DNA of 64,000 bases from an uncultured Muribaculaceae bacterium (GTDB lineage Bacteria; Bacteroidota; Bacteroidia; Bacteroidales; Muribaculaceae), in assembly GCA_905233845.1 (NCBI GenBank), contig CAJOFH010000002.1, positions 1-64,000 on the forward strand. Direction: 5' to 3'. The notes under the pieces were generated by a model, which was given only the letters and a program-made list of their open reading frames with translations, made no database searches and was not told the DNA's origin. This document shows positions 47,077 through 64,000 of the stretch, one piece after another; positions within the stretch are counted from its first letter, which is position 1; each line of letters opens with the position of its first letter. The position numbers and the translations under genes were made by a program.

Positions 47077-47127
47077 CACACTAACTGCAATTTTACGAAC
47101 AATATTAACAAATAATTAATAATTCTA

Positions 47128-49155
47128 ATGAAACGATTTTTATTTTTAATTGCAACCGTGGCGATGCTCGCCATGAACGCCAGTGCAAACATCCTGTTTG
47201 ATGTGGGCAAACTGAGATTCTGGGTTTGCGACGACGGCAAGTCGGTTTTCCTTCAAAAAGTGGTACCAGGTCAGACAGTATCGGGCGACCTCTATATTCC
47301 CCAGATAGTGAGCGACGGGGATAAAGAATATACTGTTGTGGGAATTACACAAAGTGCTTTTAGCCAACAAACCGGGTTAACGAGTGTTTACATCCCCAAC
47401 ACCGTCAAATACATCCAGAATAAAGCATTCTATAAATGCACGAGTTTAGCCAGTGTCACTGTACCGAACACTCTGGAATTTCTCGGCTACCAAGCATTTG
47501 AAAATACACCGTGGTTCAATGCCAAGCCTAACGGCCCTGTGTATTTCGGCAACACGCTCTATGTCTATAAAAACCCCAGCTCCATGCCAGCTGGCACTAA
47601 CATCGTGGTAAAAGACGGGACTACACATATAGCGGCTGATGCTTTTCTGGGCTGTGCGAATCTGACTAGTATTCACATTCCCAGTAGTGTCACATCTATT
47701 GGCGACGCTGCCTTCCTGAATTGCACCGGTCTGACAAGCGTGACCCTCCCCAACTCGGCAAAGAATCTCGGCAGCAGATTGTTCAATGGCTGCACCAGCT
47801 TGACCAGCGTAACCCTTCCGAATACAATGACTTTTATTCCTAAATCTTTTTTCAGTGGTTGTAAAGCATTGTCGAGCATTACCATCCCCAGCAACGTCGA
47901 GACAATCTTTGAGAATGCGTTCTACAATTGCAGTAGTCTGACGAGTGTGAACATTCCCAACAAAGTGAAAGCAATTGGTTACAATGCGTTCTCTGGCTGC
48001 ACCAGTTTGGCGGATATTACCGTTCCTAGTTCGGTGAGATATCTCAATTACTATGCGTTTCAAAATACCGCTTGGCTCAACAATCAACCCGACGGCATTG
48101 TGTATGCAGGCAATGTAGCATATACCTATAAGGGCACGCCATCGGGCATTCTCACCATTAAAGAAGGTACCACCGCCATAGCGTGCCAGGCCTTCTATGA
48201 ATGCTCCGGCATTACGGTATTGCGACTTCCCAACTCGCTCCTGTACATCGGCGACCAGGCGTTCCAGAAATGCACTAGCTTGACCTACTTAAACCTTCCC
48301 GGCAACTTGAAGGCAATAGGTGACGCTGCGTTCAACAGTTGCACCAACTTGACCGAAATCACCTTCCCCAATTCCCTTATCTCGGTGTACAGCATAAACG
48401 CGTTCTATAATACACAGTGGTACACCGACCAACCCGATGGCGTCTTATATGCCGGACCAGTGGCGATTGGCTATAAAGGCTCCTACCCCGCCGACAGAAT
48501 AATTACCGTGAAAGAAGGCACAAAGGCCATAGCGAATCATGGAGTGGGAACTGGTGCCCATAAAGTTATTATTCCAAACAGCGTCACAACATTGGGGGCA
48601 TATGCTTTTGAAGGTAGCTCCTCTCTGAAAGAGATTAATATTCCTCAATCAGTAACCAGCATAGGCTATTGTGCATTCCTCAGCACATCCTCCCTGGAGA
48701 GGATTGACGCTTATGTTGACCCGGCAAATGTGAAGTTGGGTGATGACGCCCTCATTATGGGTATGCCCAAATTGGAGGACTATTATAACATAATTGATTA
48801 TGGCATTTGTTTCCATTTCACTGGATCAAATCGTGGGATGGACGATTGCGTGCTTCACGTGCTGCCCGGCAAGGAGGAGAGCTTCGCCAACGCTTGGAGC
48901 TGGGCTCGATTCAAGAACATCGTGGGCGACCTGGGTGGCGGCACTCCTGCAGTTCACGGCGATGTTGACGGCGACGGAGTAGTGAGCAGCGTCGATATCA
49001 CTGCAATCTACAACTACCTGCTTAACGGCGATGACACCTACTTGAGCACAAGCGACGTTGACGGCGATGGCGTGGTTTCCAGCGTGGATATCACTATAAT
49101 TTACAACATTTTGCTTGGCAACAGCAAGGCTCCAGAGACTGCCACTATAAATTAA
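47128..49155 (+). CDS. BspA-like leucine-rich repeat protein with dockerin, truncated sorting domain
   Basis: A 675-residue exported protein with signal peptide MKRFLFLIATVAMLAMNASA. LRR_5 / BspA repeats fill about 55-560 (CTSLASVTVPNTLEFLGYQAF and similar), with periodic spacers containing a W..QPDGVLYAG motif. A dockerin-like pair (about 610-665) is nearly identical in DNA to that of the upstream amidase. The protein stops at NSKAPETATIN. The bases just after the stop still encode, one frame away, the end of a Por-type sorting domain (LKVYTG...SSHHVVVKH). The gene has therefore lost most of its C-terminal sorting domain. Confidence 0.88.
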   Translation: MKRFLFLIATVAMLAMNASANILFDVGKLRFWVCDDGKSVFLQKVVPGQTVSGDLYIPQIVSDGDKEYTVVGITQSAFSQQTGLTSVYIPNTVKYIQNKAFYKCTSLASVTVPNTLEFLGYQAFENTPWFNAKPNGPVYFGNTLYVYKNPSSMPAGTNIVVKDGTTHIAADAFLGCANLTSIHIPSSVTSIGDAAFLNCTGLTSVTLPNSAKNLGSRLFNGCTSLTSVTLPNTMTFIPKSFFSGCKALSSITIPSNVETIFENAFYNCSSLTSVNIPNKVKAIGYNAFSGCTSLADITVPSSVRYLNYYAFQNTAWLNNQPDGIVYAGNVAYTYKGTPSGILTIKEGTTAIACQAFYECSGITVLRLPNSLLYIGDQAFQKCTSLTYLNLPGNLKAIGDAAFNSCTNLTEITFPNSLISVYSINAFYNTQWYTDQPDGVLYAGPVAIGYKGSYPADRIITVKEGTKAIANHGVGTGAHKVIIPNSVTTLGAYAFEGSSSLKEINIPQSVTSIGYCAFLSTSSLERIDAYVDPANVKLGDDALIMGMPKLEDYYNIIDYGICFHFTGSNRGMDDCVLHVLPGKEESFANAWSWARFKNIVGDLGGGTPAVHGDVDGDGVVSSVDITAIYNYLLNGDDTYLSTSDVDGDGVVSSVDITIIYNILLGNSKAPETATIN

Positions 49156-49416: not shown

Positions 49417-50283
49417 ATGAGTGCAAGTCAATTTGCAAAAGTAATTGCCGAGAGCACGTCAAATCACTCCGAGTGGAGTTTAATAGACGGCAACAATGTG
49501 GTTGCTCATGCCATCATCTCAGGCATCAACCCCTATTTCCAAACCCGCCGCGAGATAAGTCACATCATCAGGCTCGAGTTGCCTCGTGACTTTTTCAAAC
49601 GCCGTTGGGACCGCATCATGTTTTATGGAGCAGGCTGCTCAACTCCTGAACGTAAAAAGATTGTTGAACTGTCGTTGGTGGCACAGTTCAAGACCCCTGT
49701 CACTGTAGAGAGTGACCTCGTGGGTGCTGCTCACGGCCTTCTTCAACACGAAGCAGGCTTAGCATGTATCTTAGGAACAGGATCAAACTCATGCTTCTAC
49801 GATGGTGAGCGCATCACCAAGAGCGTCACCTCAGGCGGCTTTATCCTGGGCGATGAAGGTAGTGGCTCGTCGATGGGTCGCATCTTCTTGAGCGACGTAT
49901 TGAAGAACCTTGCCCCACGCGAGTTGATTGAGAAGTTCTATGATGTGAACAAGATTACCAGTGCTGATGTTTTGGACTCGGTGTACAACAACCCACACGC
50001 CAACAACAATCTTCACAACTACTCATTCTTCCTTGCCGACAACCTCGACAACGAGTATGCCCGCAATCTTGTCACCACCGAGATTAAGCGATTCTTCGAT
50101 CGTAATCTTTGCCAATATGATTACAAAGACTACCCCGTGTGCTTCGTCGGCTCGGTTGCCACACGCTACAGCGAGATTCTTCTACAAGTAGCTTACAGCT
50201 ACAACATGAACGTGAAGAAAATCGTGAGCGACTCAATGCCAGGACTGGTTGCTTATCATTCCATAGCACTCATGGGGCAATAA
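49417..50283 (+). CDS. BadF/BadG-family N-acetylhexosamine (MurNAc/GlcNAc) kinase-like protein
   Basis: A 288-residue ASKHA-fold protein of the BcrAD/BadFG group, the family that contains MurK kinases of MurNAc and GlcNAc. Family blocks are ISGINPYFQTRREISHII, RIMFYGAGCSTPERKK, VESDLVGAAHGLL, ACILGTGSNSCFYDG, GGFILGDEGSGSSMGR, NNLHNYSFFLADN and CFVGSVATRYSEILLQ. The N-terminal phosphate-1 loop, normally ADSGSTKTDW, reads AESTSNHSEW (about 11-20), so the invariant Asp and Gly are lost. It may be a regulator or a weak kinase. It precedes a peptidoglycan-related operon but has its own terminator. Confidence 0.82.
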   Translation: MSASQFAKVIAESTSNHSEWSLIDGNNVVAHAIISGINPYFQTRREISHIIRLELPRDFFKRRWDRIMFYGAGCSTPERKKIVELSLVAQFKTPVTVESDLVGAAHGLLQHEAGLACILGTGSNSCFYDGERITKSVTSGGFILGDEGSGSSMGRIFLSDVLKNLAPRELIEKFYDVNKITSADVLDSVYNNPHANNNLHNYSFFLADNLDNEYARNLVTTEIKRFFDRNLCQYDYKDYPVCFVGSVATRYSEILLQVAYSYNMNVKKIVSDSMPGLVAYHSIALMGQ

Positions 50284-50307
50284 AAAGCGGACAAAAAGAC
50301 ATCTCAT

Positions 50308-50347
50308 AAAAACATCAAACATTCACAACAGAGTGTTTGATGTTTTT
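50308..50347 (+). terminator. Terminator after the kinase-like gene
   Basis: Perfect 14-bp stem AAAAACATCAAACA (50308-50321) / TGTTTGATGTTTTT (50334-50347). Confidence 0.85.
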
Positions 50348-50442
50348 CTATGCCTAAAACCACCATTTTTAGTGTTTATTTTTCAAAAAAAAATGTTTAT
50401 AACACATAAATAAAATGCTTTTATGAAAAATGAACACTTTTT

Positions 50443-50476
50443 TTGTTTTTTATTCGAAATGTTTGTTGTATTTTTG
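50443..50476 (+). promoter_or_regulatory. Probable promoter of the peptidoglycan operon
   Basis: TATTTTTG at 50469-50476 with a TTG at 50443-50445 (23-base spacer, slightly long), 32 bases before the start of the golvesin/amidase gene. Confidence 0.55.
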
Positions 50477-50508
50477 TGAACTAAAGTTTTCAGAAAACAA
50501 AAACAATC

Positions 50509-53500
50509 ATGAATATAAGAAATAGAATATTCCTATGTGGTGCATTAGGCTTACTTTTAGCCTTGCCCGTCACTGCCACCGAAACTGGCGACACAATAGT
50601 TGTCCCAACCGAGAATATCGTGGACACAGTCAACAGCTACGAGTTTGTTGACACTGTGAAAAACACAATCACCATCACCGATAGCCAGAAAGAGAACGTT
50701 CAAAAGGTCATAGCATCCAATCTGCCCGACAAAATGGGCATTGGTAAGCTCAAGGCCAATAATATAGCCATCGTGGGTGACTCTATCAAAGTAGACCTGA
50801 GTGAGAACTTCGGCGACGTGCCTTTCACAAAAGAAAGTATCGCCACGCTCAAAGACAACATCAAGACTGCGCTTGGTGAGCAATACAGCAACCGTGAGGT
50901 CTATTTGACAATTGCCGGCAACGACATCAATAACTACTTCTCGGACTTTGACGCCAGCTACCAGCGCAAGCACAATGCCTTTGTGACACCAGTAGACGAG
51001 AACCGTCAATATAAAAAAGGATTGAGCGGGAACATCATTGCGGTGTGGCCCAGCCACGGCTGGTACTTCGAGCCTTATCTTAACCGCTGGGAGTGGCAAC
51101 GCGCACGCCTGTTCCACACAGTTGAGGACATGTACACCCACAGTTACATGATACCCTTCATCATGCCCATGCTCGAGAACGCTGGCGCCTACGTTTGGGA
51201 CCCTCGCGAGCGTGATACCCACAACTTTGGTGCTGTCGTCGACAATGATGGTGACCATGCCCAAAAAGGCTACCACGAGAACAATGGTAAAAAGAAATGG
51301 AAAAACGGTGAGGGAAAAGGCTTCGGCTACTACCGCAGCGAGTACAAAGACTTTGAGAGCCCTTTTGATGAGGGCTCATACCGCATGGTGGAAGTAGAGA
51401 ACGACAAGAACAATAAACTCGCGCAAGCATCATGGGATGTGGAAATGCCTGAGGCAGGCACCTATGCCATCTACGTCAGCTACAAGTCGCTTCCCAACAG
51501 TGCTCATGACGCCAACTATACAATTAATTCACTTGAAGGAGCTCAACAGTTTATCGTTGACCAAACGATGGCTGGCGGCGTGTGGGTTTACCTTGGCTCT
51601 TTCCAGCTCGCCAAGGGCATGAACAAGAGCGTAGTTACCCTCAACAACCTCAGTAGCCAGAAAAATGCTGTAATTACTGCCGATGCCATCAAGGTGGGCG
51701 GTGGTAAGGGCAACATCGTGCGCCGCGTGGCACTTCCTACCCCCGAGAACATAGCAATCGCCGAGAAAAACGACGACATGAAATATCTGGGCAAAGAAGG
51801 AATCGACTACCAATATGTGGGCAGTGGCGACCACCCCTGGTTCCACCTTGGAGCACGTTACTTCTTGCAGTGGTCGGGATTCCCCCACAAAGTATATTCC
51901 ACAAGTGACGGAATCAACGATTACGTTGACGACTACCGCAGCCGTGGAGAATGGGTGAACTACCTGGCCGGCGGCAGCGATGTGCTTCCTAACAAACCTG
52001 GCCTAAAAGTTCCCATTGACGTATCGTTCTGCCTACACACTGATGCTGGTACAACGCCCAACGATGACATCATTGGCACACTGCTTATCTACTGTACCAC
52101 TAAGAATGGCAAACAGTTCGGAAAATATGAGAATGGCACTCCTCGAGAGCTGTCAAGGCAGTTTGCCAATATCGTATCTACAGAAGTGGTTAACGACATC
52201 CGTGCCAAGTACGAGCCAAACTGGACTCGTCGCGGCATGTGGGACAAGACCTACTATGAAGCTCGTGTTCCTGAAGTTCCCGCATTGCTCATGGAGTTAC
52301 TGTCACACCAAAACTTTGCAGACATGAAATATGGACTTGACCCTGAATTCCGCTTCGACGTGAGCCGTGCCATCTACAAGGGAATTGCCAAGTTCATCGC
52401 TAAGCGAGACCACCGCGAGTGCGTTATTCAGCCGTTGCCTGTAAACTCGTTTGCCATCAGCAAAATGAGCGAGAGCCTTCATATGCTCAGTTGGGAGCCC
52501 ACTTCTGATCCTTTGTGCCCCAGTGCCGAAGCCAAGAAGTACGTTGTTCTTGAGCAAGTGGGCCTCGATGGTGGCTTTAAAGAGATTGAGGTTGTTGATA
52601 AGACTTTCTGTTCGGTCTATATCACCGATAACGAGATACACAGCTTCAAGATAATCGCCATGAACGACGGTGGCCGCAGCTTCCCAAGCGAGACATTAAG
52701 TGTGGGCGTTGCTAAGAACAGCAAAGGAACCGTGATGGTCATCAACAATTTTACCCGCGTGAGCGCCCCCGACTGGTTTGAGAGCGGCAATATGGCAGGC
52801 TTCTACGACAATAAAGACCATGGAGTTCCTTATATGGAGCAAATCAACTATCTGGGCTCGCAGTTTGAGTTCCGTCGCGACCATCAGTGGCGCGATGACG
52901 ACGCTCCAGGTTTCGGAGCCAGCCGCAGCAATTACGAGACTCAGAACATCGCTGGAAACACTTTCAACTACCCATCACGCCACGGCGAAGCCATCATGAA
53001 CGCAGGTTACTCTTTTATCTCAAGCAGTGCCAAAGCCTTTGAGAAAGGAAACTTGGACCTCAATGACATCAAAACCATTGATATCATCATGGGCAAACAA
53101 AAGGAGACACCCACTGGCCGGGGAGCAAAACCCTCGCGATATAAAGCCTTCAACAATGAGCTTATAAACGCAATCACTGCCTACACCCGCAACGGCGGCA
53201 ACGTGCTCATGACTGGAGCCTACGTCGGCAGCGACATCTGGGACAAGGACAAGAATAAGACCAACTCCACCGAGAAAAACTTCGCTCAAAAAGTGATGGG
53301 TTATACTTGGGTTGACGGACGTGCTACCCTTACTGGTGAGGTTTATAGCGTCCCCACCGTACTCAAGATGAGTGACGGCATGGGCAAGCTCTCGTTCTAC
53401 ACTACCCTCAACAGCGACTTCTATGCTGTTGAGTCGCCTGATGCAATCAAGGCCAGTGACGACAAGGGGGCCACTATCCTGCGCTACAGCGAGAACAACA

Positions 53501-53634
53501 TTCCTGCTGGTATCGCATCAAACCGCAATGGTTACAAGACAGTTGTGACAGGCTTCCCATTTGAGACCATCAAGAACGAAAACGAGCGCAACGAGTTCAT
53601 GCAACGCGTGCTCAACTTCTTTGAGAATGAATAA
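50509..53634 (+). CDS. Large secreted amidase-like protein with inserted golvesin-type domain
   Basis: A 1041-residue exported protein, often annotated as xanthan lyase or golvesin C-terminal-like. Signal peptide 1-23. An Amidase_3-like domain appears split. The first part (about 170-240) has H183 in WPSHGWYF and E195 in NRWEW. A golvesin-type beta domain is inserted at about 305-405 (MPEAGTYAIYVSYKSLPNSA, VWVYLGSFQLAKG, ITADAIKVGGG). The amidase then resumes with H510 (CLHTDAG) and E596 (PALLMELLSHQN). A fibronectin-like domain (about 645-730) and a C-terminal flavodoxin-like or ThuA-like region follow. It probably cleaves peptidoglycan. First gene of the operon. Confidence 0.8.
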   Translation: MNIRNRIFLCGALGLLLALPVTATETGDTIVVPTENIVDTVNSYEFVDTVKNTITITDSQKENVQKVIASNLPDKMGIGKLKANNIAIVGDSIKVDLSENFGDVPFTKESIATLKDNIKTALGEQYSNREVYLTIAGNDINNYFSDFDASYQRKHNAFVTPVDENRQYKKGLSGNIIAVWPSHGWYFEPYLNRWEWQRARLFHTVEDMYTHSYMIPFIMPMLENAGAYVWDPRERDTHNFGAVVDNDGDHAQKGYHENNGKKKWKNGEGKGFGYYRSEYKDFESPFDEGSYRMVEVENDKNNKLAQASWDVEMPEAGTYAIYVSYKSLPNSAHDANYTINSLEGAQQFIVDQTMAGGVWVYLGSFQLAKGMNKSVVTLNNLSSQKNAVITADAIKVGGGKGNIVRRVALPTPENIAIAEKNDDMKYLGKEGIDYQYVGSGDHPWFHLGARYFLQWSGFPHKVYSTSDGINDYVDDYRSRGEWVNYLAGGSDVLPNKPGLKVPIDVSFCLHTDAGTTPNDDIIGTLLIYCTTKNGKQFGKYENGTPRELSRQFANIVSTEVVNDIRAKYEPNWTRRGMWDKTYYEARVPEVPALLMELLSHQNFADMKYGLDPEFRFDVSRAIYKGIAKFIAKRDHRECVIQPLPVNSFAISKMSESLHMLSWEPTSDPLCPSAEAKKYVVLEQVGLDGGFKEIEVVDKTFCSVYITDNEIHSFKIIAMNDGGRSFPSETLSVGVAKNSKGTVMVINNFTRVSAPDWFESGNMAGFYDNKDHGVPYMEQINYLGSQFEFRRDHQWRDDDAPGFGASRSNYETQNIAGNTFNYPSRHGEAIMNAGYSFISSSAKAFEKGNLDLNDIKTIDIIMGKQKETPTGRGAKPSRYKAFNNELINAITAYTRNGGNVLMTGAYVGSDIWDKDKNKTNSTEKNFAQKVMGYTWVDGRATLTGEVYSVPTVLKMSDGMGKLSFYTTLNSDFYAVESPDAIKASDDKGATILRYSENNIPAGIASNRNGYKTVVTGFPFETIKNENERNEFMQRVLNFFENE

Positions 53635-53651
53635 TACATTTTTCCTGATTT

Positions 53652-55076
53652 ATGGAAGAACATATATCCATATCTCCTATCACCTGCCACCAAGCAAAAA
53701 TTATTGCTTGTGATGGCGACTTGCCATTAAGGAAAAACTATCATAGTATAGACCTTAATGGATTGGGAAGTGATTGGTTGGAATCTCTAAAGCACATTGG
53801 AGATTCTAAATATGGACTTTATATTTTAAAACCTGGACTCATTGAGCTTGGTCACATGGCATTGAGACGCATGGTTAAAGTTGCCCAAGACACTGGTGCT
53901 GCAATGGTCTATTGCGATCATTTTAATGGCAGGACCGATGGCACACTTGCCAAGCATCCCGTTATTGACTGCCAAGAAGGCTCGCTGCGCGATGACTTTG
54001 ACTTCGGGCCAGTTGTAATGATAAATCGAAATGCTTTATATGAAGCATGCAAGGAGATAGAAGAGGATTTTGACAATCTGCATCACTCATTTTTCTATGC
54101 AATGAGGCTGGCTATATCGCGATTTGGAAAAATTGTGCACATTCCCGAATACCTCTACACATCCGACATCCAAGACTTACGCAGTAGTGGCGAGCGAATC
54201 TTTGACTATCAGCGCGAGAGCGAAGCCGAAAGGCAGAAAGAGCTGGAGGCTGTGTGCACATGGCATTTAAAGAAGATTGGCGCCTATCTGCCACCTGAGC
54301 AATATGATGATGTTGATTTAAGTGAGGGCGAGTTTCCTGTGGAATGCTCAGTAATCATTCCTGTGCTCAATCGTGTGAATGTTATTCGTGATGCCATCAA
54401 GAGTGTGCTATCGCAAGAGGCCCCGTTTAAATTCAACCTTATTGTTATCGACAACCATTCAACCGACGGCACTAGCGAGGCTATCGACAAGTTTGCCCAA
54501 GACCCGCGCCTTATTCATATTATTCCCGAGCGACGTGATTTGGGAATTGGCGGATGCTGGAACTTGGGAATTTACGACGAGCGATGTGGTCGCTTTGCAG
54601 TTGGTCTCGACAGCGATGACCTATTTGCCACACCTCATGTTTTGGAAACTATGGTTGCCAAATTCTATGAGGACAACGCTGCAATGGTCGTGGGCAGCTA
54701 CAATGTTGTCAACAATGACCTGCAAGAAGTTCCTCCTGGCATTATCGCACACCGTGAGTGGACATTGGAGAATGGTCGCAACAACTTGTTGCGCGTGAAC
54801 GGTATTGGTGGACCACGCGCATTCTTCACTCCTATATACCGCCGCATTTGTCTGCCATGCAGCAGCTATGGCGAGGACTATGGCATGGGGCTAATGATTT
54901 CTCGACATTACCGTGTGGGACGCGTTTGGGACGTGATGACCCTTGCCCGCCGCGGCGACAATAACACCGATTCCAACCTCAGCATTGAGCAGGAGAATGC
55001 CAACAACCTATATAAAGACCGCCTTCGTACTTGGGAAGTACAAGCACGACAGGCACTAATGAAATGTGATAATTAA
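53652..55076 (+). CDS. Family 2 glycosyltransferase, paralogue 1
   Basis: A 474-residue cytoplasmic protein. Residues about 225-474 form a complete GT-A glycosyltransferase 2 domain: CSVIIPVLNRVNVIRDAIKS, LIVIDNHSTDGTSEAI, GIGGCWNLGI, the DxD-type VGLDSDDLF, and GEDYGMGLMIS near the catalytic base. The N-terminal 220 residues look like a second, degenerate GT-A half with MVYCDHFNGRTDG, SLRDDFDFGPVV and a long helical link. No membrane helices are evident. It lies 17 bases after the amidase and before a close paralogue. Its codon use in the first 150 residues is more AT-rich than the paralogue's. Confidence 0.85.
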   Translation: MEEHISISPITCHQAKIIACDGDLPLRKNYHSIDLNGLGSDWLESLKHIGDSKYGLYILKPGLIELGHMALRRMVKVAQDTGAAMVYCDHFNGRTDGTLAKHPVIDCQEGSLRDDFDFGPVVMINRNALYEACKEIEEDFDNLHHSFFYAMRLAISRFGKIVHIPEYLYTSDIQDLRSSGERIFDYQRESEAERQKELEAVCTWHLKKIGAYLPPEQYDDVDLSEGEFPVECSVIIPVLNRVNVIRDAIKSVLSQEAPFKFNLIVIDNHSTDGTSEAIDKFAQDPRLIHIIPERRDLGIGGCWNLGIYDERCGRFAVGLDSDDLFATPHVLETMVAKFYEDNAAMVVGSYNVVNNDLQEVPPGIIAHREWTLENGRNNLLRVNGIGGPRAFFTPIYRRICLPCSSYGEDYGMGLMISRHYRVGRVWDVMTLARRGDNNTDSNLSIEQENANNLYKDRLRTWEVQARQALMKCDN

Positions 55077-55097
55077 CAATCAAAATATAAGAACATC

Positions 55098-56582
55098 ATG
55101 ACAAAGATTAATTGCTTTATTCCTTTTGCCAACGCCGAGCAGGCTCAGGCTACTGTTGATGGATTGAAAAATAATTCATTAGTGAACAAAATCTATTTGC
55201 TTGCCAATGACGAGGCACAAGGCACCATCGAGGGCTGCGAGATGCTCAAGGTGAACAACCTCACCTCGACCGCTACCATCAAGGCTATTGCTGAGCGCAG
55301 CGACGCATGCGTAACCATGCTTTACACAAAGTATGTAACCTTGAAATTTGCGCCCTTCGCTATTGAGCGTTTCGTAAAGATTCTCGCCGACACACAGAGC
55401 GGTATGGTCTATGCCGACCACTACAACGTGACCGACAAGGGCGCCGACAAGGCTCCCGTGATTGACTATCAAATGGGTTCGCTGCGCGACGACTTCGACT
55501 TTGGCTCAGTGCTCGTGTTCTGTGGCGAGTGCTTCAAGAAGGCTGCAGCAGCCATGAAGTCGACATATGAGTTTGCAGGACTCTATGATCTGCGCCTCAA
55601 ACTGTCGCAGTTTGCTGCAATCACTCACATCAATGAGTTCCTCTACAGTGACGTAGAGCTTGACACCCGCAAGAGCGGTGAGAAGATTTTTGACTATGTA
55701 GACCCACGCAACCGCGGCCGCCAGATTGAAATGGAGGCTGCTTGCACCGAACACCTGAAGGAGATAGGCGGATATCTCGCACCAACTAAGGTGGTTGATG
55801 GTAAGGAAGTTCCCAACTTCAAGCACATCGAATTTGACCACGACAAGTTTGAGGTAGAGGCAACCGTAATGATACCCGTGCGCAACCGTATCCGCACCAT
55901 CCGCGACGCCATCGATAGCGTGCTGAAGCAGAAGACCAACTTCAAATTCAACTTGATGGTAGTCGACAACTTCTCGACCGACGGCACTCGTGAGGCCATT
56001 GCCGAGTACAACGACCCACGCTTAATTCATATCATCGCCGACTTCTATGACATGGGCATTGGCGGTTACTGGAACCTTGCCGCTCATCACCCAAAGGCCG
56101 GCAAGTTTGTGGTGCAGCTCGACAGCGACGACATGTACAAGGACGAGAACACGCTGCAGACCATGGTTAACGCCTTCTACGAGCAGAACGTGGCAATGGT
56201 AGTGGGAACCTACCTGATGACCGACATCCATTGCAACCCCATTCCTCCCGGTGTGATCGACCACAAGGAGTGGACTCCCGAGAACGGTCGCAACAACGCC
56301 CTGCGCATCAACGGACTGGGCGCACCCCGCGCGTTCTACACTCCAGTGCTGCGTGAGGTGATGCTGCCAAACACCAGCTATGGCGAGGACTATGCTCTTG
56401 GTCTAAACATTTCTCGCACCTATCAGATTGGTCGCGTGTATGAGCCAGTGTATCTGTGCCGCCGTTGGGATGACAACAGCGATGCCAACGTAGACGTTGT
56501 TAAGATGAACAACAACAATATCTACAAAGACCGCATGCGCACATGGGAGCTTATGGCCCGCATCGCAATGAACAAGAAATAA
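55098..56582 (+). CDS. Family 2 glycosyltransferase, paralogue 2
   Basis: A 494-residue tandem paralogue of the preceding protein with the same layout: a degenerate N-terminal GT-A half (about 1-225, with MVYADHYNVTDKG and SLRDDFDFGSVL) and a full GT2 domain (about 245-494) with VMIPVRNRIRTIRDAIDSVLK, LMVVDNFSTDGTREAI, GIGGYWNLAA, VQLDSDDMY and GEDYALGLNIS. Its position among muropeptide genes suggests a sugar-nucleotide substrate derived from GlcNAc or MurNAc, but acceptor and donor are unknown. It starts 21 bases after its paralogue. Confidence 0.88.
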   Translation: MTKINCFIPFANAEQAQATVDGLKNNSLVNKIYLLANDEAQGTIEGCEMLKVNNLTSTATIKAIAERSDACVTMLYTKYVTLKFAPFAIERFVKILADTQSGMVYADHYNVTDKGADKAPVIDYQMGSLRDDFDFGSVLVFCGECFKKAAAAMKSTYEFAGLYDLRLKLSQFAAITHINEFLYSDVELDTRKSGEKIFDYVDPRNRGRQIEMEAACTEHLKEIGGYLAPTKVVDGKEVPNFKHIEFDHDKFEVEATVMIPVRNRIRTIRDAIDSVLKQKTNFKFNLMVVDNFSTDGTREAIAEYNDPRLIHIIADFYDMGIGGYWNLAAHHPKAGKFVVQLDSDDMYKDENTLQTMVNAFYEQNVAMVVGTYLMTDIHCNPIPPGVIDHKEWTPENGRNNALRINGLGAPRAFYTPVLREVMLPNTSYGEDYALGLNISRTYQIGRVYEPVYLCRRWDDNSDANVDVVKMNNNNIYKDRMRTWELMARIAMNKK

Positions 56583-56592
56583 ATCTAGTACT

Positions 56593-57549
56593 ATGTCAAG
56601 CAACTATATTGAAGAAATCGACCACCTCTGGCAACGACAGTTGACCGAGTGGGATGCCGTAATCAAAAATTATGGCAACCTCACACATGTCGACACTCGC
56701 GTTGTGGAGTTGGGCGATTCTTCAATTACGTTGCAATATAACCCTGAGCGGTTGAGGTCGTCGGCAGCAAATATCGATGACGCATCGCTCAAGGCACGCC
56801 CATGTTTCCTGTGCCGTGAGAATCAGCCCAAGGAACAGGAAACTGTGCTCTGGGAAAACCGTTACAAGATTCAGGTTAACCCCTACCCCATCTTTTCGCG
56901 CCACCTCACTATCTCGGCCGTAGAGCACACACCCCAACGCATTGCAGGTCGTATTGTCGACATGATGCTCCTAGCTCGAGACTTGGAGGACTATGTGCTG
57001 TTTTATAATGGGCCTCAATGTGGTGCCTCGGCCCCCGACCACATGCATTTCCAAGCTGGGCCATGCAACGAGCTACCCATATGCGACGAACTCTTCACCG
57101 CAAGCATAAGACTTTTTGACGCTAACAACAAAGGCATTTTTGGTGTTGTCACCAGCTTGGGGCGTCCAATCTTTTACATTGAGACTATGAGCACCAATTT
57201 AGGAGAAATGTGGTTCAATTCTCTTCTCAATGAATTGCCGGTAAAAAATGGGCATTGCGAGCCCATGATCAACATCCTGTGCTGGCACCACAATGGCTCA
57301 TGGTGCATAGCAGTGTTTCCACGCCGCAAGCACCGTCCTGCATGTTACGGCACTGACGAAGACCAATTTGTGCTCAGTCCAGCCTCGGTTGACATGGGTG
57401 GACTATGGGCTATTGCACGAGAAGAAGACTATAAAAATCTCACCCTTCACGATGTGACAATAATCTACATGGATGTGTGTCAATCACCGCAAGATGTAGA
57501 TGATATATCGGAGAAATTATTACAATATTACTATTCAAAAAAACAATAG
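56593..57549 (+). CDS. DUF4922 protein, HIT/GalT-like predicted nucleotidyltransferase or phosphorylase
   Basis: A 318-residue soluble protein of the DUF4922 family. ARPCFLCRENQPKEQ (about 75-90) is a zinc-type C..C motif, followed by NPYPIFSRHLTIS. The motif H150-M-H152-F-Q154 in SAPDHMHFQAG matches the HxHxQ active site of galactose-1-phosphate uridylyltransferase and Ap4A phosphorylase, where the central histidine forms a nucleotidyl intermediate. A sugar-phosphate uridylyl- or phosphorylase activity is a reasonable hypothesis; nothing proves the substrate. It begins 10 bases after the second glycosyltransferase and ends 3 bases before the SpoIID gene. Confidence 0.8.
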   Translation: MSSNYIEEIDHLWQRQLTEWDAVIKNYGNLTHVDTRVVELGDSSITLQYNPERLRSSAANIDDASLKARPCFLCRENQPKEQETVLWENRYKIQVNPYPIFSRHLTISAVEHTPQRIAGRIVDMMLLARDLEDYVLFYNGPQCGASAPDHMHFQAGPCNELPICDELFTASIRLFDANNKGIFGVVTSLGRPIFYIETMSTNLGEMWFNSLLNELPVKNGHCEPMINILCWHHNGSWCIAVFPRRKHRPACYGTDEDQFVLSPASVDMGGLWAIAREEDYKNLTLHDVTIIYMDVCQSPQDVDDISEKLLQYYYSKKQ

Positions 57550-57552
57550 ATT

Positions 57553-58878
57553 ATGGCACAAGTTCCGCAAGTTAGAGTGGGCATCATGAATGAGCCTATG
57601 GTTGAGTTTGAGCTCAATGGCGAATATCTTGTCAACGGCGAGAAAGTTACCGGCAACCAGCTGACACGCTGCGTCGACGGCATGGTAGAATGGAACGGAC
57701 GCAAATATAGCGATCTCCTATTTGAACCCACAAACGTCGACACCGACTCGTTCACCCTTGAGAACGTGACGATAGGTGTGAGTTTCCACTGGAAACGCAA
57801 GGAGAACCAAACCTTCAGGGGCGCACTGCACCTGATTGTTGAGAACGACCAAATCACTACCATCAATATCCTCTCGATAGAGGAATACTTGCTAAGTGTA
57901 ATTTCAAGCGAGATGAGTGCTACGGCATCGCTCGAGCTGCTAAAGGCTCATGCTGTAATATCGAGGAGCTGGCTGCTAGCACAAATCCACAAGGATAACG
58001 TTGCTACTGCTGTCAACCCAGGACTGCACCAGGAGTTTGAAGCCAGCAACGACGAAGAAGAAATCAAGTGGTGGGACCGTGACGACCACGTTAACTTTGA
58101 CGTATGCGCCGACGACCACTGCCAGCGCTATCAAGGCATCACCCGTGCCTCAACTGAAGCAGTGCGCCAAGCCATCGAGGCGACCTGGGGACAGGTGCTG
58201 ATGTATGGTGGAGAATTGTGCGACGCTCGTTTCTCGAAGTCATGCGGTGGCGTCTACGAACAGTTTGAGAACTGTTGGCAAGATGACCATCACCCTTACT
58301 TGGTGGCACGTCGCGATGATGAAGACGAGATGAATTTCCCCGACCTCACCCGTGAAGACAATGCAGCCGACTGGATTCTCTCGTCACCTCACGCTCACTG
58401 CAACACCACTGACAAAGAAATCTTGTCACAGGTGCTTAACGACTATGACCAAGAGACCACCGACTTCTATCGTTGGCGTGTAGAATACACTCAAGACGAG
58501 CTAAGCAAGCTCATCAAGGAGCGCACCGGTGATGACTATGGCCGCATTATCGACCTTGAGCCAGTGGCACGTGGCACCAGCGGCCGATTGTACAAACTAC
58601 GCATCGTGGGCGAGAAAATGACCAAGACTATTGGAAAAGAGCTCTCAATACGTTATGCTCTGTCGCCTTCATGCCTCTACAGCTCGGCCTTCATCGTTGA
58701 GAAAATCAACGAGAGCAATGATGAGTTCCCTGAGAAATTTATCTTGCGAGGTGCTGGATGGGGCCATGGCGTAGGTCTGTGCCAGATAGGTGCTGCCGTG
58801 ATGGGAGCCAAAGGATATGACTACGACGAGATTCTGCTCCACTACTTCATAGATGCACAAATAAAGACTATTTACTAA
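57553..58878 (+). CDS. SpoIID/LytB domain protein without signal peptide
   Basis: A 441-residue protein with an N-terminal GBS Bsp-like or strand-rich region (about 1-90) and a SpoIID domain (about 90-430). Catalytic-type E120 sits in SVISSEMSATASLELLKAHAVISRSW. FSKSCGGVYE and the closing GAGWGHGVGLCQIGAAVMGAKGYDYDEILLHYF are hallmark blocks. SpoIID of Bacillus is a lytic transglycosylase acting on peptide-free glycan strands. Here the N-terminus MAQVPQVRVGIMNEP has no signal or membrane helix, so the protein appears cytoplasmic. It should then act on imported muropeptide fragments. It lies three bases after DUF4922. Confidence 0.88.
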   Translation: MAQVPQVRVGIMNEPMVEFELNGEYLVNGEKVTGNQLTRCVDGMVEWNGRKYSDLLFEPTNVDTDSFTLENVTIGVSFHWKRKENQTFRGALHLIVENDQITTINILSIEEYLLSVISSEMSATASLELLKAHAVISRSWLLAQIHKDNVATAVNPGLHQEFEASNDEEEIKWWDRDDHVNFDVCADDHCQRYQGITRASTEAVRQAIEATWGQVLMYGGELCDARFSKSCGGVYEQFENCWQDDHHPYLVARRDDEDEMNFPDLTREDNAADWILSSPHAHCNTTDKEILSQVLNDYDQETTDFYRWRVEYTQDELSKLIKERTGDDYGRIIDLEPVARGTSGRLYKLRIVGEKMTKTIGKELSIRYALSPSCLYSSAFIVEKINESNDEFPEKFILRGAGWGHGVGLCQIGAAVMGAKGYDYDEILLHYFIDAQIKTIY

Positions 58879-58907
58879 TAAACGCTAATAACCAAAACTC
58901 TATAACA

Positions 58908-60236
58908 ATGAGCGCATTAACAAAATTCAAACAATCGCCATGGGCGTGGGTTTCTACGCTATATTTCATCGAGGGAATTCCCTACTTTCTCGTGAATGAG
59001 ATTTCAGTAATCTTATTCAAGAAGATGGGTGTCCCCAATGGACAGATGGCGCTGTTCACCAGTCTTATCTATCTTCCATGGGTTATTAAACCCCTTTGGA
59101 GTCCATTTGTCGACATTATCAAGAAAAAACGCTGGTGGATTGTCATGATGCAGGCACTCATGGCAGTAACTCTTATCCTTCTCACTGTGACGATGCCATC
59201 GCCTGGTGAAGAGATGATCAAAGCGGGCACAACGCCTATGAGCATGTTTACCGTAACACTGATTTTCTTCATCATTACAGCATTTGCCTCGGCAACTCAC
59301 GACATTGCAGCCGACGGTTTTTACATGCTGGCGTTGACACAAAAGAATCAATCGGCATTTGTGGGAGTTCGTTCTACATTCTACCGCCTTGCCAACATCT
59401 TTGGCAATGGTGTGCTGGTGTGGATAGCTGGATATCTTGAGACCAAAACATCGATTCCCGCCGCATGGAAAATTACAATGGGCATAGCTTCGGCTATCTT
59501 GTGCTTGTTCTATGTTTATCACCTATTCTTCATTCCTCGTCCCGACAGTGACCGTTCATCGCTTGAAGGGTCGTTAAAAAATAACAGTTCGAAAGTGTTG
59601 AGTGAGTTTGGACGCACCATTGTGACCTACTTCAAAAAGCCAGGCGTGTGGATTGCAATTATCTTCATGCTGCTCTATCGCTTGCCCGAGGCCTTCCTGC
59701 TCAAGATGTGTAAGCCATTTATGCTCGACCCAATAGACAAAGGCGGTTTGTCGATGACCACCCAGGATGTTGGACTCGCCTACGGCACAATTGGTGTGGC
59801 TGCCCTCCTGGCTGGAGGTATTCTAGGAGGAATATTCTCATCAAAAGTTGGTCTTAAAAAAGCCATTTGGCTCATGGCAGCGTGTATGACATTGCCATGC
59901 TTGACCTTTGTATATCTCTCTATGGCTCAACCCACCAACTTCTTCGTCATTAGCACATGTATCGTGATTGAGCAGTTTGGTTACGGCTTTGGATTCACTG
60001 CCTATATGTTATACATGATGTTCTTCTCAGAGGGCGAATTCAAGACATCGCACTATGCGTTGTGTACGGCTTTCATGTCACTGAGTATGATGATACCAGG
60101 CATGTTTGCCGGTTACTTGCAAGAGGCTATGGGTTATTCAGCATTCTTCTGGATGGCATTTGCATGTAGCATCGCTACAATCTTCGTGACCTTCCTTGCC
60201 GACCGAAAGATAGATCCCGACTACGGCCTCAAGTAA
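58908..60236 (+). CDS. ampG: AmpG-like muropeptide permease
   Basis: A 442-residue major facilitator protein with about 12 transmembrane helices. SPWAWVSTLYFIEGIPYFLVNEISVILFKKMG, LIYLPWVIKPLWSPFVDI, ATHDIAADGFYMLAL and IEQFGYGFGFTAYMLYMM are typical of the AmpG family, which imports anhydro-muropeptides or GlcNAc-anhydroMurNAc into the cytoplasm. It is flanked by SpoIID and NamZ genes. A weak stem AAACTAC / GTAGTTT plus T-run lies just after the gene (60253-60278) and could attenuate transcription. Confidence 0.92.
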   Translation: MSALTKFKQSPWAWVSTLYFIEGIPYFLVNEISVILFKKMGVPNGQMALFTSLIYLPWVIKPLWSPFVDIIKKKRWWIVMMQALMAVTLILLTVTMPSPGEEMIKAGTTPMSMFTVTLIFFIITAFASATHDIAADGFYMLALTQKNQSAFVGVRSTFYRLANIFGNGVLVWIAGYLETKTSIPAAWKITMGIASAILCLFYVYHLFFIPRPDSDRSSLEGSLKNNSSKVLSEFGRTIVTYFKKPGVWIAIIFMLLYRLPEAFLLKMCKPFMLDPIDKGGLSMTTQDVGLAYGTIGVAALLAGGILGGIFSSKVGLKKAIWLMAACMTLPCLTFVYLSMAQPTNFFVISTCIVIEQFGYGFGFTAYMLYMMFFSEGEFKTSHYALCTAFMSLSMMIPGMFAGYLQEAMGYSAFFWMAFACSIATIFVTFLADRKIDPDYGLK

Positions 60237-60252
60237 ATTGACACACATTATT

Positions 60253-60278
60253 AAACTACAGATAAATCCGTAGTTTTT
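60253..60278 (+). terminator. Weak stem-loop, possible attenuator
   Basis: A 7-bp stem AAACTAC (60253-60259) / GTAGTTT (60270-60276) followed by a short T-run, between ampG and the NamZ-like gene. Confidence 0.4.
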
Positions 60279-60294
60279 ATAAAAAATTAAAGAT

Positions 60295-61548
60295 ATGAAA
60301 CGACACATTATATTAATTGCTCTAGCGATGGTGGTGATGGCTGCTAACGCGGTTGTGAAACCTGGCATTGAGGTATTGCGCGATAGTGGTTTCAAGCAAC
60401 TGCAGGGCAAGCGTGTGGGACTGGTCACCAACCCTAGTGGTATCGACAACAACCTTAAATCAACAGTCGATATCCTTAATGAGGCTAAAGGTGTGAAGCT
60501 GGTGGCTTTGTTTGGCCCAGAGCATGGCGTTCGCGGTAATGCCCATGCAGGCGATGCGGTGGGCGATGCCGTAGATCCCGCAACTGGCGTGAAAATGTAC
60601 TCACTCTTTGGCAAAACGCATGAGCCCACTGCCGAGATGCTTAAAGGCATCGACGTGCTAGTCTACGACATTCAAGACATTGGCTGCCGCAGCTACACGT
60701 TCTATGCTACCATGGGCGTGTGTATGCAGGCGTGCGCCAAGCATAATAAGGAATTCATGGTCCTCGACCGCCCCAATCCCCTTGGCGGTAACAAGGTGGA
60801 GGGAAACCTCGTGGAGCCTGGATATTTCTCGTTTGTGAGTAAATATGCTATTCCCTACCTCTATGGCTTAACACCTGGCGAACTTGCCCAGTACCTCAAC
60901 GAGGAAGGCATCATTGGCAAGGAGTCAAAAACCGGCAAAAAGTGTAAACTTACTGTCATCCCTATGGAAGGATGGACCCGTGACATGAAGTTCCGCGACA
61001 CTGGTATGCCCTGGGTGCTTCCCTCACCACAAATACCCGCACCCGAGAACGCATTCTTCTATCCCGTGAGCGGTATTCTAGGTGAGCTGTATATCTTCAA
61101 CACTGGCATTGGCTACACTTTACCCTTTGAGTGTTTTGCTGCCTCATGGATTGATGCCGAGGCACTTGCCAAGAAGATGAACGCGTTGAATCTTCCCGGC
61201 ATGCACTTCCGCCCCATCAACTATAAGCCATTCTTTGCATTGAGTGTGGCAGTTGACCAGTCGTTACAAGAGGTGCATGGTGTGCAGATTTATATAACCG
61301 ACTTTGACAAAGCTAACCTCGTGCTCACTCAGTTCTACTTCCTGCAAGTGATTCACGAGATGTATCCCAAAAAGCAGCTCTTTGAGCAGAATCCTAAGCG
61401 ATATGCTATGTTTGACAAGGTGTGTGGCACCAAGGAGATTCGCGAACGCTTCTGCAAGCGCTACAAAGTAGCCGACATCGTTGACTACTTCAACAAAGAC
61501 ACCGAGGCTTTCAAAGCAAAATCGAGCAAGTATTATCTTTATCAATAA
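60295..61548 (+). CDS. namZ: Exo-beta-N-acetylmuramidase, NamZ type (DUF1343, GH171)
   Basis: A 417-residue exported protein with signal peptide MKRHIILIALAMVVMAANA. The DUF1343 core begins PGIEVLRDSGFKQLQGKRVGLVTNPSG, then LFGPEHGVRG (E76, H77), VLVYDIQDIGCRSYTFYATM, FMVLDRPNPLGG, MEGWTRDMKFRDTGMPWVLPSPQIP and LSVAVDQ. NamZ enzymes (CAZy GH171) release MurNAc from the non-reducing ends of peptidoglycan glycans in the periplasm, as known in Bacillus subtilis and Tannerella forsythia. The product would need a transporter and MurNAc-using enzymes; ampG is adjacent. Confidence 0.9.
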   Translation: MKRHIILIALAMVVMAANAVVKPGIEVLRDSGFKQLQGKRVGLVTNPSGIDNNLKSTVDILNEAKGVKLVALFGPEHGVRGNAHAGDAVGDAVDPATGVKMYSLFGKTHEPTAEMLKGIDVLVYDIQDIGCRSYTFYATMGVCMQACAKHNKEFMVLDRPNPLGGNKVEGNLVEPGYFSFVSKYAIPYLYGLTPGELAQYLNEEGIIGKESKTGKKCKLTVIPMEGWTRDMKFRDTGMPWVLPSPQIPAPENAFFYPVSGILGELYIFNTGIGYTLPFECFAASWIDAEALAKKMNALNLPGMHFRPINYKPFFALSVAVDQSLQEVHGVQIYITDFDKANLVLTQFYFLQVIHEMYPKKQLFEQNPKRYAMFDKVCGTKEIRERFCKRYKVADIVDYFNKDTEAFKAKSSKYYLYQ

Positions 61549-61584
61549 TCTAGAAAATCTAGAGCTTCTAGAACATCTAGCATA
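61549..61584. repeat. TCTAGA-rich spacer
   Basis: Four near-copies of TCTAGA/ATCTAG within 33 bases (61549-61581) fill the gap between namZ and the oxidase gene and can form alternative small hairpins. Confidence 0.6.
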
Positions 61585-64000
61585 ATGGAAGAGAACCACA
61601 AAACATATCTCAAGCGCATCGGGGAATTCATCCCTAAAAATCGCATATATACCGATGACCTGCACTGCCTAGCGTGGGGCACCGATGCTGGCTTCTACCG
61701 CAACATTCCGCAAATTGTGGTGCGTTCCATGAACGAGCAGGAGGTGTCGCAACTGCTTGCCATTGCAAGTGAGATGCAACTGCCAGTGACGTTCCGTGCT
61801 GCGGGAACAAGTTTGAGCGGTCAGACCAACACCGACTCTATCCTCATTGTCGCTGGCAAGAACTGGGAGCACTATGAGGTGGCTCCCGATGCCAGCTACA
61901 TCAAGTTGCAGCCAGGACTCGTGGGCAGCGAGGTCGACAAGATTCTTGCTCGTCACAACCGCGCCTTCACCCCTGACCCTGCCAGCAAGAATTCGTCGAT
62001 GGTGGGTGGCATCGTCATCAACAACGCCAGCGGAATGAGCTGTGGCACTCATGCCAACAGCGACCGAATGATGCTCTCGATGCGCATCGTACTTGCCGAT
62101 GGCACCGTCCTCGACACAGGCGACGAGACAAGCCGCAACGCCTTTACAAAATCGCATCCCGACTTCATCAAGCGAATTGAAGAGATTCGTGACCGCGTGA
62201 TGGCCGACAAAGACCTCGTTGAACGCATTCGTCGCAAATATTCCATCAAGAATGTCACAGGACTCAACATCTCTCCATTTATATTATATACCGACCCGTT
62301 CGACATAATTACCCACCTCATCGTAGGCAGTGAGGGCACCCTTGCCTTTGCCAGTGAATTCACAATGAAGACCGGGCACCTCTACCCTTGCCGCGCCAGC
62401 GCAATGCTATACTTCAAAGATATGCGCGAGTCGTGCGAGACAGTGGTGGCAATGAAGAAAGGCCCTGTTCACTGCGCCGAGATTCTTGACAAGAAATCGC
62501 TTGCGAGCGTTGACGACAATACCGGTGAAGGCCTCACCGCAGTCCTTATCCAAACCTTTGCCGACAGCAAAGAAGAGTTGCAGAGCAACATCGATGAGAT
62601 AATGACCATCCTTGAGCCATTCCATCTATATGTGCCTGCCGTCTTCACCGACGACCCCAAAGTCTATGGCAAGTATTGGGCAATACGCTCCGGCATCTTC
62701 CCCAGTGTGGGTGGCACACGTCCGCTCGGGACCACGGTGCTAATCGAGGATGTGGCATTCCACATCGAGGATTTACCCGACGCCACTGTCGACCTTGCTC
62801 AGATGCTCATCGACTACGGCTACGACGACAGCTGCATCTACGGCCATGCCCTTGAGGGCAATTATCACTTCATCATCTCGCAGTCATTTGATACTCAAGA
62901 AGAAATCAAGCGTTACGAGAACCTTATGCGTGCCGTTGTGGAGCTAGTGATAGACAAATATGATGGTTCGCTCAAGGCAGAGCATGGTACAGGCCGCAAC
63001 ATGGCACCGTTCGTCAAGAAAGAATGGGGCGAAAAGGCCTATCAGGTAATGCTCGACGTGAAGCAGCTCTTTGACCCACAAGGCGTCCTTAATCCCGGCG
63101 TGATTTTCAACGACGACCCTGAGTGCTTCATCAAGAACCTCAAACCCATGCCGTTGACAAATGATAACGTCAACAAGTGCATCGAGTGCGGGTTCTGCGA
63201 GGTGAACTGTGTGAGCAGTGGATTCACACTCTCTTCGCGCCAGCGCATCATCGTGCAACGTGAGATTTCTAGATTAAGAGATACGGGCGAAGACCCCGAG
63301 CGGTTAAAACGCCTCGAAGAACAATATAAATACTATGGAGAAGCCACTTGCGCCGCCGACGGTCTTTGCTCCACCTCTTGCCCGATGGGTATCAACGTGG
63401 GTGAATTGACCCACGATTTGCGAGCCGAGCAACATGCTAAGGGTACTATGGCTCATAGTATTGGCAACTACGTGTCGCGTCATTTTGCAAGGACCAAAGG
63501 TGGTCTCAAGTCGTTGCTTTACATCGCTGATGCGGCACACTCGGTGATAGGTGACGGCGGTGTGAAAGCCATGGGCAAAGCCATGCATGCCATAGGTGCT
63601 CCATTATGGACACCATCCACTCCTAAGCCACACAAGATGAAGGCATTGAACCAACATACCAGCGACAAGAAAGTCGTGTACTTCCCCAGCTGCCTCAACC
63701 AAGCGTTGGGCCGCGACAAGCATGGGGTGGAGGTTGATCTCGTTGATAAAGTGGTGGCTTTCCTCAACAAGGCTGGATGGGAAGTCATATATCCCGAGAA
63801 CATGAATAACCTGTGCTGCGGCATGATTTGGAACAGCAAGGGTATGCCCGACATAGCGCAACAGAAAACCGACGAACTCGAGCAGGCTTTTCTTAAAGCG
63901 AGCGAAGGCGGCAAGTTGCCCGTAGTGTGCGACCAAAGTCCATGTCTGCACCATATGCGCGAACACATGAAGCAAGTGAAACCATTGGAGCTTATGGAGT
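61585..64000 (+). CDS. FAD/Fe-S D-lactate dehydrogenase-type oxidase, cut by window end
   Basis: At least 805 residues from ATG at 61585, open to the window edge. The FAD-binding PCMH domain (about 40-260) has FRAAGTSLSGQTN and SSMVGGIVINNASGMSCGTH. The FAD-linked oxidase C-terminal domain (about 270-505) ends LKAEHGTGRNMAPF, LFDPQGVLNPGVIF. Two ferredoxin-type clusters follow: CIECGFCEVNC (about 533-543) and CAADGLCSTSCP (about 588-599). A CCG domain starts near 690 (PSCLNQALGR, NLCCGMIWNSKG). This layout fits D-lactate or D-2-hydroxyacid dehydrogenases. Beside namZ, oxidation of D-lactate cleaved from MurNAc is a natural role, but glycolate-type substrates are not excluded. Confidence 0.88.
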   Translation, partial: MEENHKTYLKRIGEFIPKNRIYTDDLHCLAWGTDAGFYRNIPQIVVRSMNEQEVSQLLAIASEMQLPVTFRAAGTSLSGQTNTDSILIVAGKNWEHYEVAPDASYIKLQPGLVGSEVDKILARHNRAFTPDPASKNSSMVGGIVINNASGMSCGTHANSDRMMLSMRIVLADGTVLDTGDETSRNAFTKSHPDFIKRIEEIRDRVMADKDLVERIRRKYSIKNVTGLNISPFILYTDPFDIITHLIVGSEGTLAFASEFTMKTGHLYPCRASAMLYFKDMRESCETVVAMKKGPVHCAEILDKKSLASVDDNTGEGLTAVLIQTFADSKEELQSNIDEIMTILEPFHLYVPAVFTDDPKVYGKYWAIRSGIFPSVGGTRPLGTTVLIEDVAFHIEDLPDATVDLAQMLIDYGYDDSCIYGHALEGNYHFIISQSFDTQEEIKRYENLMRAVVELVIDKYDGSLKAEHGTGRNMAPFVKKEWGEKAYQVMLDVKQLFDPQGVLNPGVIFNDDPECFIKNLKPMPLTNDNVNKCIECGFCEVNCVSSGFTLSSRQRIIVQREISRLRDTGEDPERLKRLEEQYKYYGEATCAADGLCSTSCPMGINVGELTHDLRAEQHAKGTMAHSIGNYVSRHFARTKGGLKSLLYIADAAHSVIGDGGVKAMGKAMHAIGAPLWTPSTPKPHKMKALNQHTSDKKVVYFPSCLNQALGRDKHGVEVDLVDKVVAFLNKAGWEVIYPENMNNLCCGMIWNSKGMPDIAQQKTDELEQAFLKASEGGKLPVVCDQSPCLHHMREHMKQVKPLELME

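Follow-up and report, generated by a model that had tools for sequence, protein, structure and literature searches.

At its downstream end, the window (the whole 64,000-nucleotide stretch analysed, positions 1 to 64,000 of the forward strand of contig CAJOFH010000002.1, from an uncultured Muribaculaceae bacterium) carries adjacent genes for a family 2 glycosyltransferase (GT2), a DUF4922 protein and a SpoIID protein. We give a probability of roughly one half to the reading that these three proteins, hereafter the trio, form one cytosolic unit providing an AnmK-independent route for cell-wall fragments imported by AmpG. The trio's unity, its likely cytosolic place and its nesting among AmpG genomes are supported by sequence comparison. 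This support consists of association and architecture; the reaction is not among the supported points, and we infer every chemical step of the route.

The trio occurs as a unit

Distribution was analysed in a phylum sample of 148 Bacteroidota genomes and an order sample of 99 genomes of the window's order. In the phylum sample, DUF4922 was counted at E <1e-40 and the GT2 profile at E ≤1e-60, after removal of two weak DUF4922 matches (G027, over the cut-off, and G136, under it). Some form of SpoIID, the ordinary short forms included, is present in 45 of the 148 genomes; the long, zinc-loop class was set post hoc, once the spans were seen to be two-peaked (255–288 nucleotides for short and 339–363 for long forms). 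With these definitions, DUF4922, GT2 and zinc-loop SpoIID are found in exactly the same 22 genomes. The order sample, in which SpoIID spans were divided by eye (long, 330–408 nucleotides; others, ≤276), has the trio in 21 of 99 genomes, with two single-gene exceptions. The trio is retained even where its genes lie far apart (G074 and G132); in the one-contig genome G132, the record coordinates place GT2 more than 2 Mb from the other two genes.

An RpoB tree was built for 74 of the 99 order genomes. It includes all 21 with the trio and both exceptions; the remaining 51 were picked by hand, mostly from the more complete. The trio changes state nine times on this tree, with at least five changes forced by its starred branches. 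Across the five starred pairs, SpoIID accompanies DUF4922 in 4.9 and GT2 does so in 4.7 on average, and the genes are never opposed.

Natural fusions, each an open frame, link the same proteins. DUF4922 is joined to SpoIID in L119 (761 amino acids), L136 from Carboxylicivirga linearis (760) and L155 (792), as well as in L156, where both parts are shortened (673), and GT2 is joined to DUF4922 in L157 (830). Signal-like N-termini, scored by a hydropathy rule rather than by a signal-peptide predictor, were found in 0 of 98 DUF4922 proteins, 1 of 92 GT2 proteins and 3 of 91 SpoIID proteins, compared with 50 of 54 relatives of the golvesin/amidase protein encoded upstream. The original prediction of a SpoIID without signal peptide is thereby borne out, and the fusions place SpoIID behind DUF4922. 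Given the co-occurrence, the fusions and the near-absence of signal-like N-termini, the three proteins appear to act jointly in the cytosol.

Sampled AmpG genomes lack AnmK only on a trio background

AmpG, counted with the window protein as query at E ≤1e-20, is present in 44 of the 148 genomes: every one of the 22 with the trio, and 22 of the 126 that lack it. AnmK, examined in the phylum sample only, is present in 103 genomes, comprising 8 of the 22 with the trio and 95 of the 126 without. Within the AmpG set, every one of the 22 trio-less genomes has AnmK, as do 8 of the 22 trio genomes, and none of the 44 lacks both AnmK and the trio; the comparison thus supports AnmK absence among AmpG genomes only where the trio is present. 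The 14 AnmK-less trio genomes fall under six family codes (f1, f13, f15, f18, f29 and f33), five of which hold both states. The window genome, which is 97% complete, is one in which the search of this sample found no AnmK. Recycling as known from Escherichia coli and Pseudomonas (AmpG, NagZ, AnmK, and MurQ or AmgK/MurU) shares with the window genome AmpG import, a kinase for N-acetylmuramic acid (MurNAc) and an etherase, and differs in its use of AnmK, which is missing from the window genome and from 14 of the 22 trio genomes.

The co-occurrence with murQ that had been suggested as a check is not strict: MurQ is not over the cut-off in 6 of the 22 trio genomes, which rules out dependence on MurQ as the purpose of the trio. 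Among the 14 AnmK-less trio genomes, MurQ is likewise not over the cut-off in six.

The gene run corresponds to the Tannerella forsythia AmpG/MurTKQ operon

Judged by sequence and gene order, the run is the published AmpG/MurTKQ operon of T. forsythia. There, Tanf_08345 to 08385 form a single transcript by reverse transcription PCR, with a promoter activated by GppX, and the genes are listed as xanthan lyase, gtf, gtf, lytB, ampG, ybbC and murTKQ (Ruscitto et al., PMC5388701, available text). The corresponding locus in our set, L115 (T. forsythia ATCC 43037 contig 82), was recovered by DUF4922 similarity and reads K1058 (opposite strand), golvesin/amidase, GT2, DUF4922, SpoIID, AmpG, NamZ, MurT, MurK and MurQ. 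The two loci share their genes and order from golvesin/amidase to MurQ at 40 to 74% identity, with K1058 adjoining; in the window, a flavin adenine dinucleotide (FAD) oxidase is added, GT2 is duplicated and the K1058 gene has the same orientation as the run. Because six genes occupy the matching six positions, the second published 'glycosyltransferase', Tanf_08355, would be the DUF4922 gene (L115:9992-10924, 216.5 bits to DUF4922). By position, the protein encoded at 50509-53634 would be the counterpart of the 'xanthan lyase' Tanf_08345. What is new beyond the published operon is the all-or-none trio.

The physiology of T. forsythia bears on the function of the trio. According to the accessible part of PMC7670621, the species grows through AmpG on the disaccharide of N-acetylglucosamine (GlcNAc) and 1,6-anhydro-MurNAc (anhMurNAc), no AnmK is predicted in it, and digests by cell extract as well as the medium of an ampG mutant contained disaccharides rather than disaccharide-peptides; its authors describe the processing of AmpG-imported fragments as an open question. 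T. forsythia MurK is inactive on anhMurNAc (PMC5790795, available portion).

Architecture of the trio proteins

The DUF4922 protein has the two-half GalT/Apa fold of the HIT superfamily of nucleotidyl transferases and phosphorylases. The HxHxQ site previously noted is present as H150-M-H152-F-Q154, with H150, H152 and Q154 invariant in 67 rows; in a wider set, Q154 is replaced by histidine in 1 of 18 rows. By far the best fold match is the diadenosine tetraphosphate (Ap4A) phosphorylase Apa2 (Protein Data Bank (PDB) entry 4i5t), to which the protein appears closer than to GalT; Apa2 is similar over the whole fold and in the HxHxQ motif, and differs in sequence (17% identity). The Pfam family Ap4A_phos_N scores 16.3 bits in the window protein, under the cut-off of 23.1, and weak matches (E up to 5) occur in 66 of 67 members. 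By comparison with HIT/GalT proteins, we take C71, C74, H112 and H150 to be a probable zinc site and H152 the probable nucleophile.

The trio GT2 combines a GT-A-like N-terminal half with a canonical C-terminal GT2 domain (LDSDD, GED and RRW). A profile comparison aimed at internal GT-A duplication returned only a 21-column match, so that the first half is assigned from fold similarity. Chondroitin polymerase K4CP (PDB entry 2z86) likewise has two GT-A-like halves with canonical GT2 motifs in the second; in the window protein the halves are packed differently (root mean square deviation of 21 over 398 residues) and the first lacks the usual DxD. Pfam scores for GT2 are over the cut-off (84.6 and 70.4 bits), and the DxD, ED and RRW motifs are present. 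The copy at 53652-55076, originally regarded as one of a functional pair, looks like a local duplicate, probably a lineage-specific one. A requirement for two conserved GT2 genes was rejected, as two full copies occur in only 3 of 78 related loci, many of which lack upstream DNA. A GNAT-type acetyltransferase, recognized by eye, lies between GT2 and DUF4922 in L043 and L052, which belong to two family codes.

The SpoIID protein is of the zinc-loop type; across 94 aligned rows, E120, C185, H189 and C190 are each conserved to 95% or more. The catalytic glutamate E120 was aligned to SpoIID structures, and the zinc residues were matched by motif. The roles of these residues are described for the lytic transglycosylase SpoIID of Clostridioides difficile (PMC6221140, in the text available), which the trio protein resembles in its aligned glutamate and C/H/C residues; the trio protein differs from it in having no signal-like N-terminus and in being fused or linked to DUF4922. 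In L139 (f15) and L048 (f33), the gene after zinc-loop SpoIID is, by eye, a GT4-like glycosyltransferase rather than AmpG, and frames of similar length occur in several of L139-L152 (f15).

Proposed route and alternatives

Known SpoIID relatives produce 1,6-anhydro ends on peptide-free glycan. In the proposed route, secreted amidases would strip the peptides and AmpG would bring in the sugar. SpoIID would then act on the MurNAc end by the reverse chemistry, opening the anhydro ring with water or a sugar as acceptor, while GT2 and DUF4922 would serve the GlcNAc or nucleoside diphosphate (NDP)-sugar side. MurNAc would pass to MurK/MurQ or to AmgK/MurU, and the D-lactate derived from MurQ to the FAD oxidase. 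The individual step that we consider likeliest is the opening of the ring by SpoIID, at odds well below even.

One specific form of the route, to which we attach a low probability, is a nucleotide relay in which the trio replaces both NagZ and AnmK. Starting from imported GlcNAc-anhMurNAc, SpoIID would open the 1,6-anhydro ring, GT2 running in reverse with NDP would yield NDP-GlcNAc and MurNAc, and DUF4922 would phosphorolyse NDP-GlcNAc to GlcNAc-1-phosphate with recovery of NDP. The net conversion would be of cell-wall disaccharide and phosphate to GlcNAc-1-phosphate and MurNAc, with no ATP spent. We know of no description of an enzyme with a lytic transglycosylase fold undoing an anhydro bond in the cytosol.

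Several observations weigh against the AnmK-independent route. We know of no activity established for any of the three trio proteins. AnmK is retained in 8 of the 22 trio genomes, and 31 genomes with neither AmpG nor the trio lack it as well; the AnmK evidence comes from one sample, the 148 genomes. The Fisher test for trio against AnmK among AmpG genomes (p 5.6e-6) ignores kinship, and a sign test on the five starred pairs cannot reach p 0.05. The two exceptions in the order sample carry one gene each, a weaker GT2 match of 227 bits in G158 (61% complete) and a long SpoIID in G243. Within the locus flanks, 6 of 75 loci have no SpoIID near DUF4922 (L080, L083, L086, L088, L094 and L134), L083 and L128 are without GT and AmpG nearby and L113 is without AmpG; in the families coded f15 and f33, AmpG is not a neighbour of the trio genes. 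Ring opening by SpoIID finds no mention in the portions of the literature available, and free anhMurNAc supported only limited growth of T. forsythia (PMC7670621, accessible part).

A pathway along the lines originally predicted, in which DUF4922 makes an NDP-sugar from salvaged sugar-1-phosphate, GT2 builds a new glycan from it and SpoIID trims the product, is a possible but rather improbable alternative. It agrees with the HxHxQ site and GalT-superfamily fold of DUF4922, with the GT2–DUF4922 fusion in L157, and with the resemblance of GT2 to two-domain polymerases (chondroitin polymerase and heparosan synthase). The closest fold, however, is that of the phosphorylase Apa2, and the window cluster, the only one examined in this respect, has no gene to export or anchor a new glycan. 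Moreover, T. forsythia has AmgK/MurU for UDP-MurNAc, according to the available literature, which also disfavours DUF4922 as a MurU substitute.

Alternatively, and with less likelihood, the kinase encoded directly upstream of the run performs the missing anhMurNAc step and the trio has another salvage role. This BadF/ASKHA kinase had been thought to resemble MurK, and its nearest relative proves to be K1058 (53% identity to T. forsythia K1058 and 38% to T. forsythia MurK). A phmmer search against the PDB gave 8ow7 (5e-98), 8oqk (2e-97) and the 'putative novel MurNAc kinase' 8ow9 (4e-58); the 8ow7/8oqk sequence is, by eye, the one encoded upstream of the operon in T. forsythia, and 8oqw is, we believe, T. 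forsythia MurK. The Pfam BadF match is under the cut-off (16.3 against 31.5 bits). T. forsythia K1058 binds MurNAc tightly and turns it over poorly, with no natural substrate assigned in the sources available, which leaves room for such a role. Against it, the phosphate-1 loops are mostly altered: in the loci examined, GSTK is kept in 1 of 21 K1058-type frames (one incomplete, and including that of the window, which reads ESTSNHSEW), compared with 50 of 53 MurK-type frames. The K1058-type kinase with its altered loop is perhaps a regulator or an enzyme of another substrate.

It is also unlikely, to a slightly greater degree, that the trio handles only GlcNAc-MurNAc and that the AnmK-less lineages ceased making anhydro ends. 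GlcNAc-MurNAc is imported by T. forsythia AmpG and is the main disaccharide of cell-extract digests, but the species grows on GlcNAc-anhMurNAc (PMC7670621, available part) and, in the text accessible to us, its own wall contains anhMurNAc. Least probable is that DUF4922 is a housekeeping phosphorylase of dinucleotides or stray NDP-sugars (of the Ap4A or GDP-glucose type) co-transcribed by chance, a role that suits the Apa2 fold and the weak Ap4A_phos_N matches. Against it stand the fusions of DUF4922 to GT2 and to SpoIID and the strict pattern in which the three occur together.

Gene neighbourhood

Every gene named in the original prediction was found as an open frame on the + strand (Table 1), and the salvage setting stood; the complete route inside the window did not, since MurT, MurK and MurQ lie past its end. 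The kinase is an orthologue of K1058, and the second GT2 looks like a local duplicate. Intergenic gaps are 3 to 58 nucleotides from 50509 through 61585, preceded by a gap of 225 nucleotides, the pattern expected of one transcript starting at 50.5 kb. Scans for promoters and terminators around 50.5 kb (six and two sites; shuffled sequence gave 3.4 and 2.0) were not used as evidence.

Table 1 Features of the gene run and its surroundings
Feature	Position	Strand	Basis
Secreted amidase, dockerin match, type IX sorting tail	44491-47076	+	Pfam/NCBIfam
BadF/ASKHA kinase, K1058 orthologue	49417-50283	+	phmmer against PDB; identity to T. forsythia gene
Golvesin_C + Amidase_3 protein, secreted	50509-53634	+	Pfam; 44% identity to T. 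forsythia protein
GT2, second copy	53652-55076	+	Pfam; 46% identity to other GT2 copy
GT2 of trio	55098-56582	+	Pfam; 63% identity to T. forsythia protein
DUF4922 of trio	56593-57549	+	Pfam 206.5 bits, cut-off 23.6; 40% identity to T. forsythia
SpoIID of trio	57553-58878	+	PF08486 and TIGR02669 over cut-off; 62% identity to T. forsythia
AmpG-type MFS muropeptide permease	58908-60236	+	MFS_1; 49% identity to T. forsythia AmpG
NamZ exo-beta-N-acetylmuramidase, probably exported	60295-61548	+	NamZ_N 284.5 and NamZ_C 127.1 bits, both over cut-off
FAD/Fe-S oxidoreductase	61585-64000 in window; gene end near contig 64383	+	Pfam/NCBIfam; full length 932 amino acids (L004)
MurT-like protein, past window end	contig 64376-65527		49% identity to T. 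forsythia protein
MurK, past window end	contig 65596-66432		52% identity to T. forsythia MurK, 44% to K1058
MurQ, past window end	contig 66570-67388		305 bits; 74% identity to T. forsythia protein

Gene order was compared in the 80 named loci closest to the window DUF4922 protein, a choice that tilts the counts to close relatives; denominators are loci with sufficient flanks, and L119 and L136, where DUF4922 and SpoIID are fused, were excluded. The order put forward for testing is largely conserved among these loci, with DUF4922 accompanied by GT in 69 of 71 loci, SpoIID in 69 of 75, AmpG in 63 of 66, NamZ in 51 of 63, golvesin/amidase in 45 of 57 and the oxidase in 36 of 60.

The golvesin/amidase protein may, to judge from its domains, strip stem peptides outside the cytosol. 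Its secretion agrees with the signal-like N-termini of its relatives; Amidase_3 scores 25.5 bits, just under the Pfam cut-off of 27. Relatives of the amidase at 44491-47076 occur at a similar distance upstream in several loci. Beside it (within 44491-49155) lies a second secreted-looking protein, which has BspA-type leucine-rich repeats and carries, by eye, the same dockerin-like repeat. The AmpG protein scores 182 bits with TIGR00901, under the cut-off of 350, and its T. forsythia counterpart, at 49% identity, is functional according to published work. The NamZ call is confirmed by both domains; the protein is 54% identical to the one encoded in the T. forsythia operon, and the N-terminus is signal-like in 65 of 67 relatives. 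NamZ as part of a specific package was ruled out, as it is present in 146 of the 148 genomes (the two without it are G009, a trio genome, and G021); a further NamZ is encoded on a different contig of the window genome (G000:C18:6052-6660).

The oxidoreductase starting at 61585 is probably an FAD-oxidase plus Fe-S D-2-hydroxyacid dehydrogenase with D-lactate as substrate. Among loci that have MurQ in the vicinity, 28 of 39 contain it, against 7 of 20 among the rest, as expected if it uses D-lactate freed by MurQ. A GDSL esterase, which might remove O-acetyl groups from MurNAc, follows MurQ (L004:7406-8173, contig 67406-68173), and a relative follows MurQ in L160.

Significance

The trio supplies three named genes for the fragment-processing question raised for T. 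forsythia (PMC7670621, available part), and it may explain the use of fragments without a known processing enzyme in relatives such as Tannerella. DUF4922 gains a functional setting; the literature available under that term concerns plant GGP genes. If the AnmK-independent route is true, 22 of the 148 Bacteroidota genomes sampled, or about one in seven, would recycle the cell wall outside the textbook scheme.

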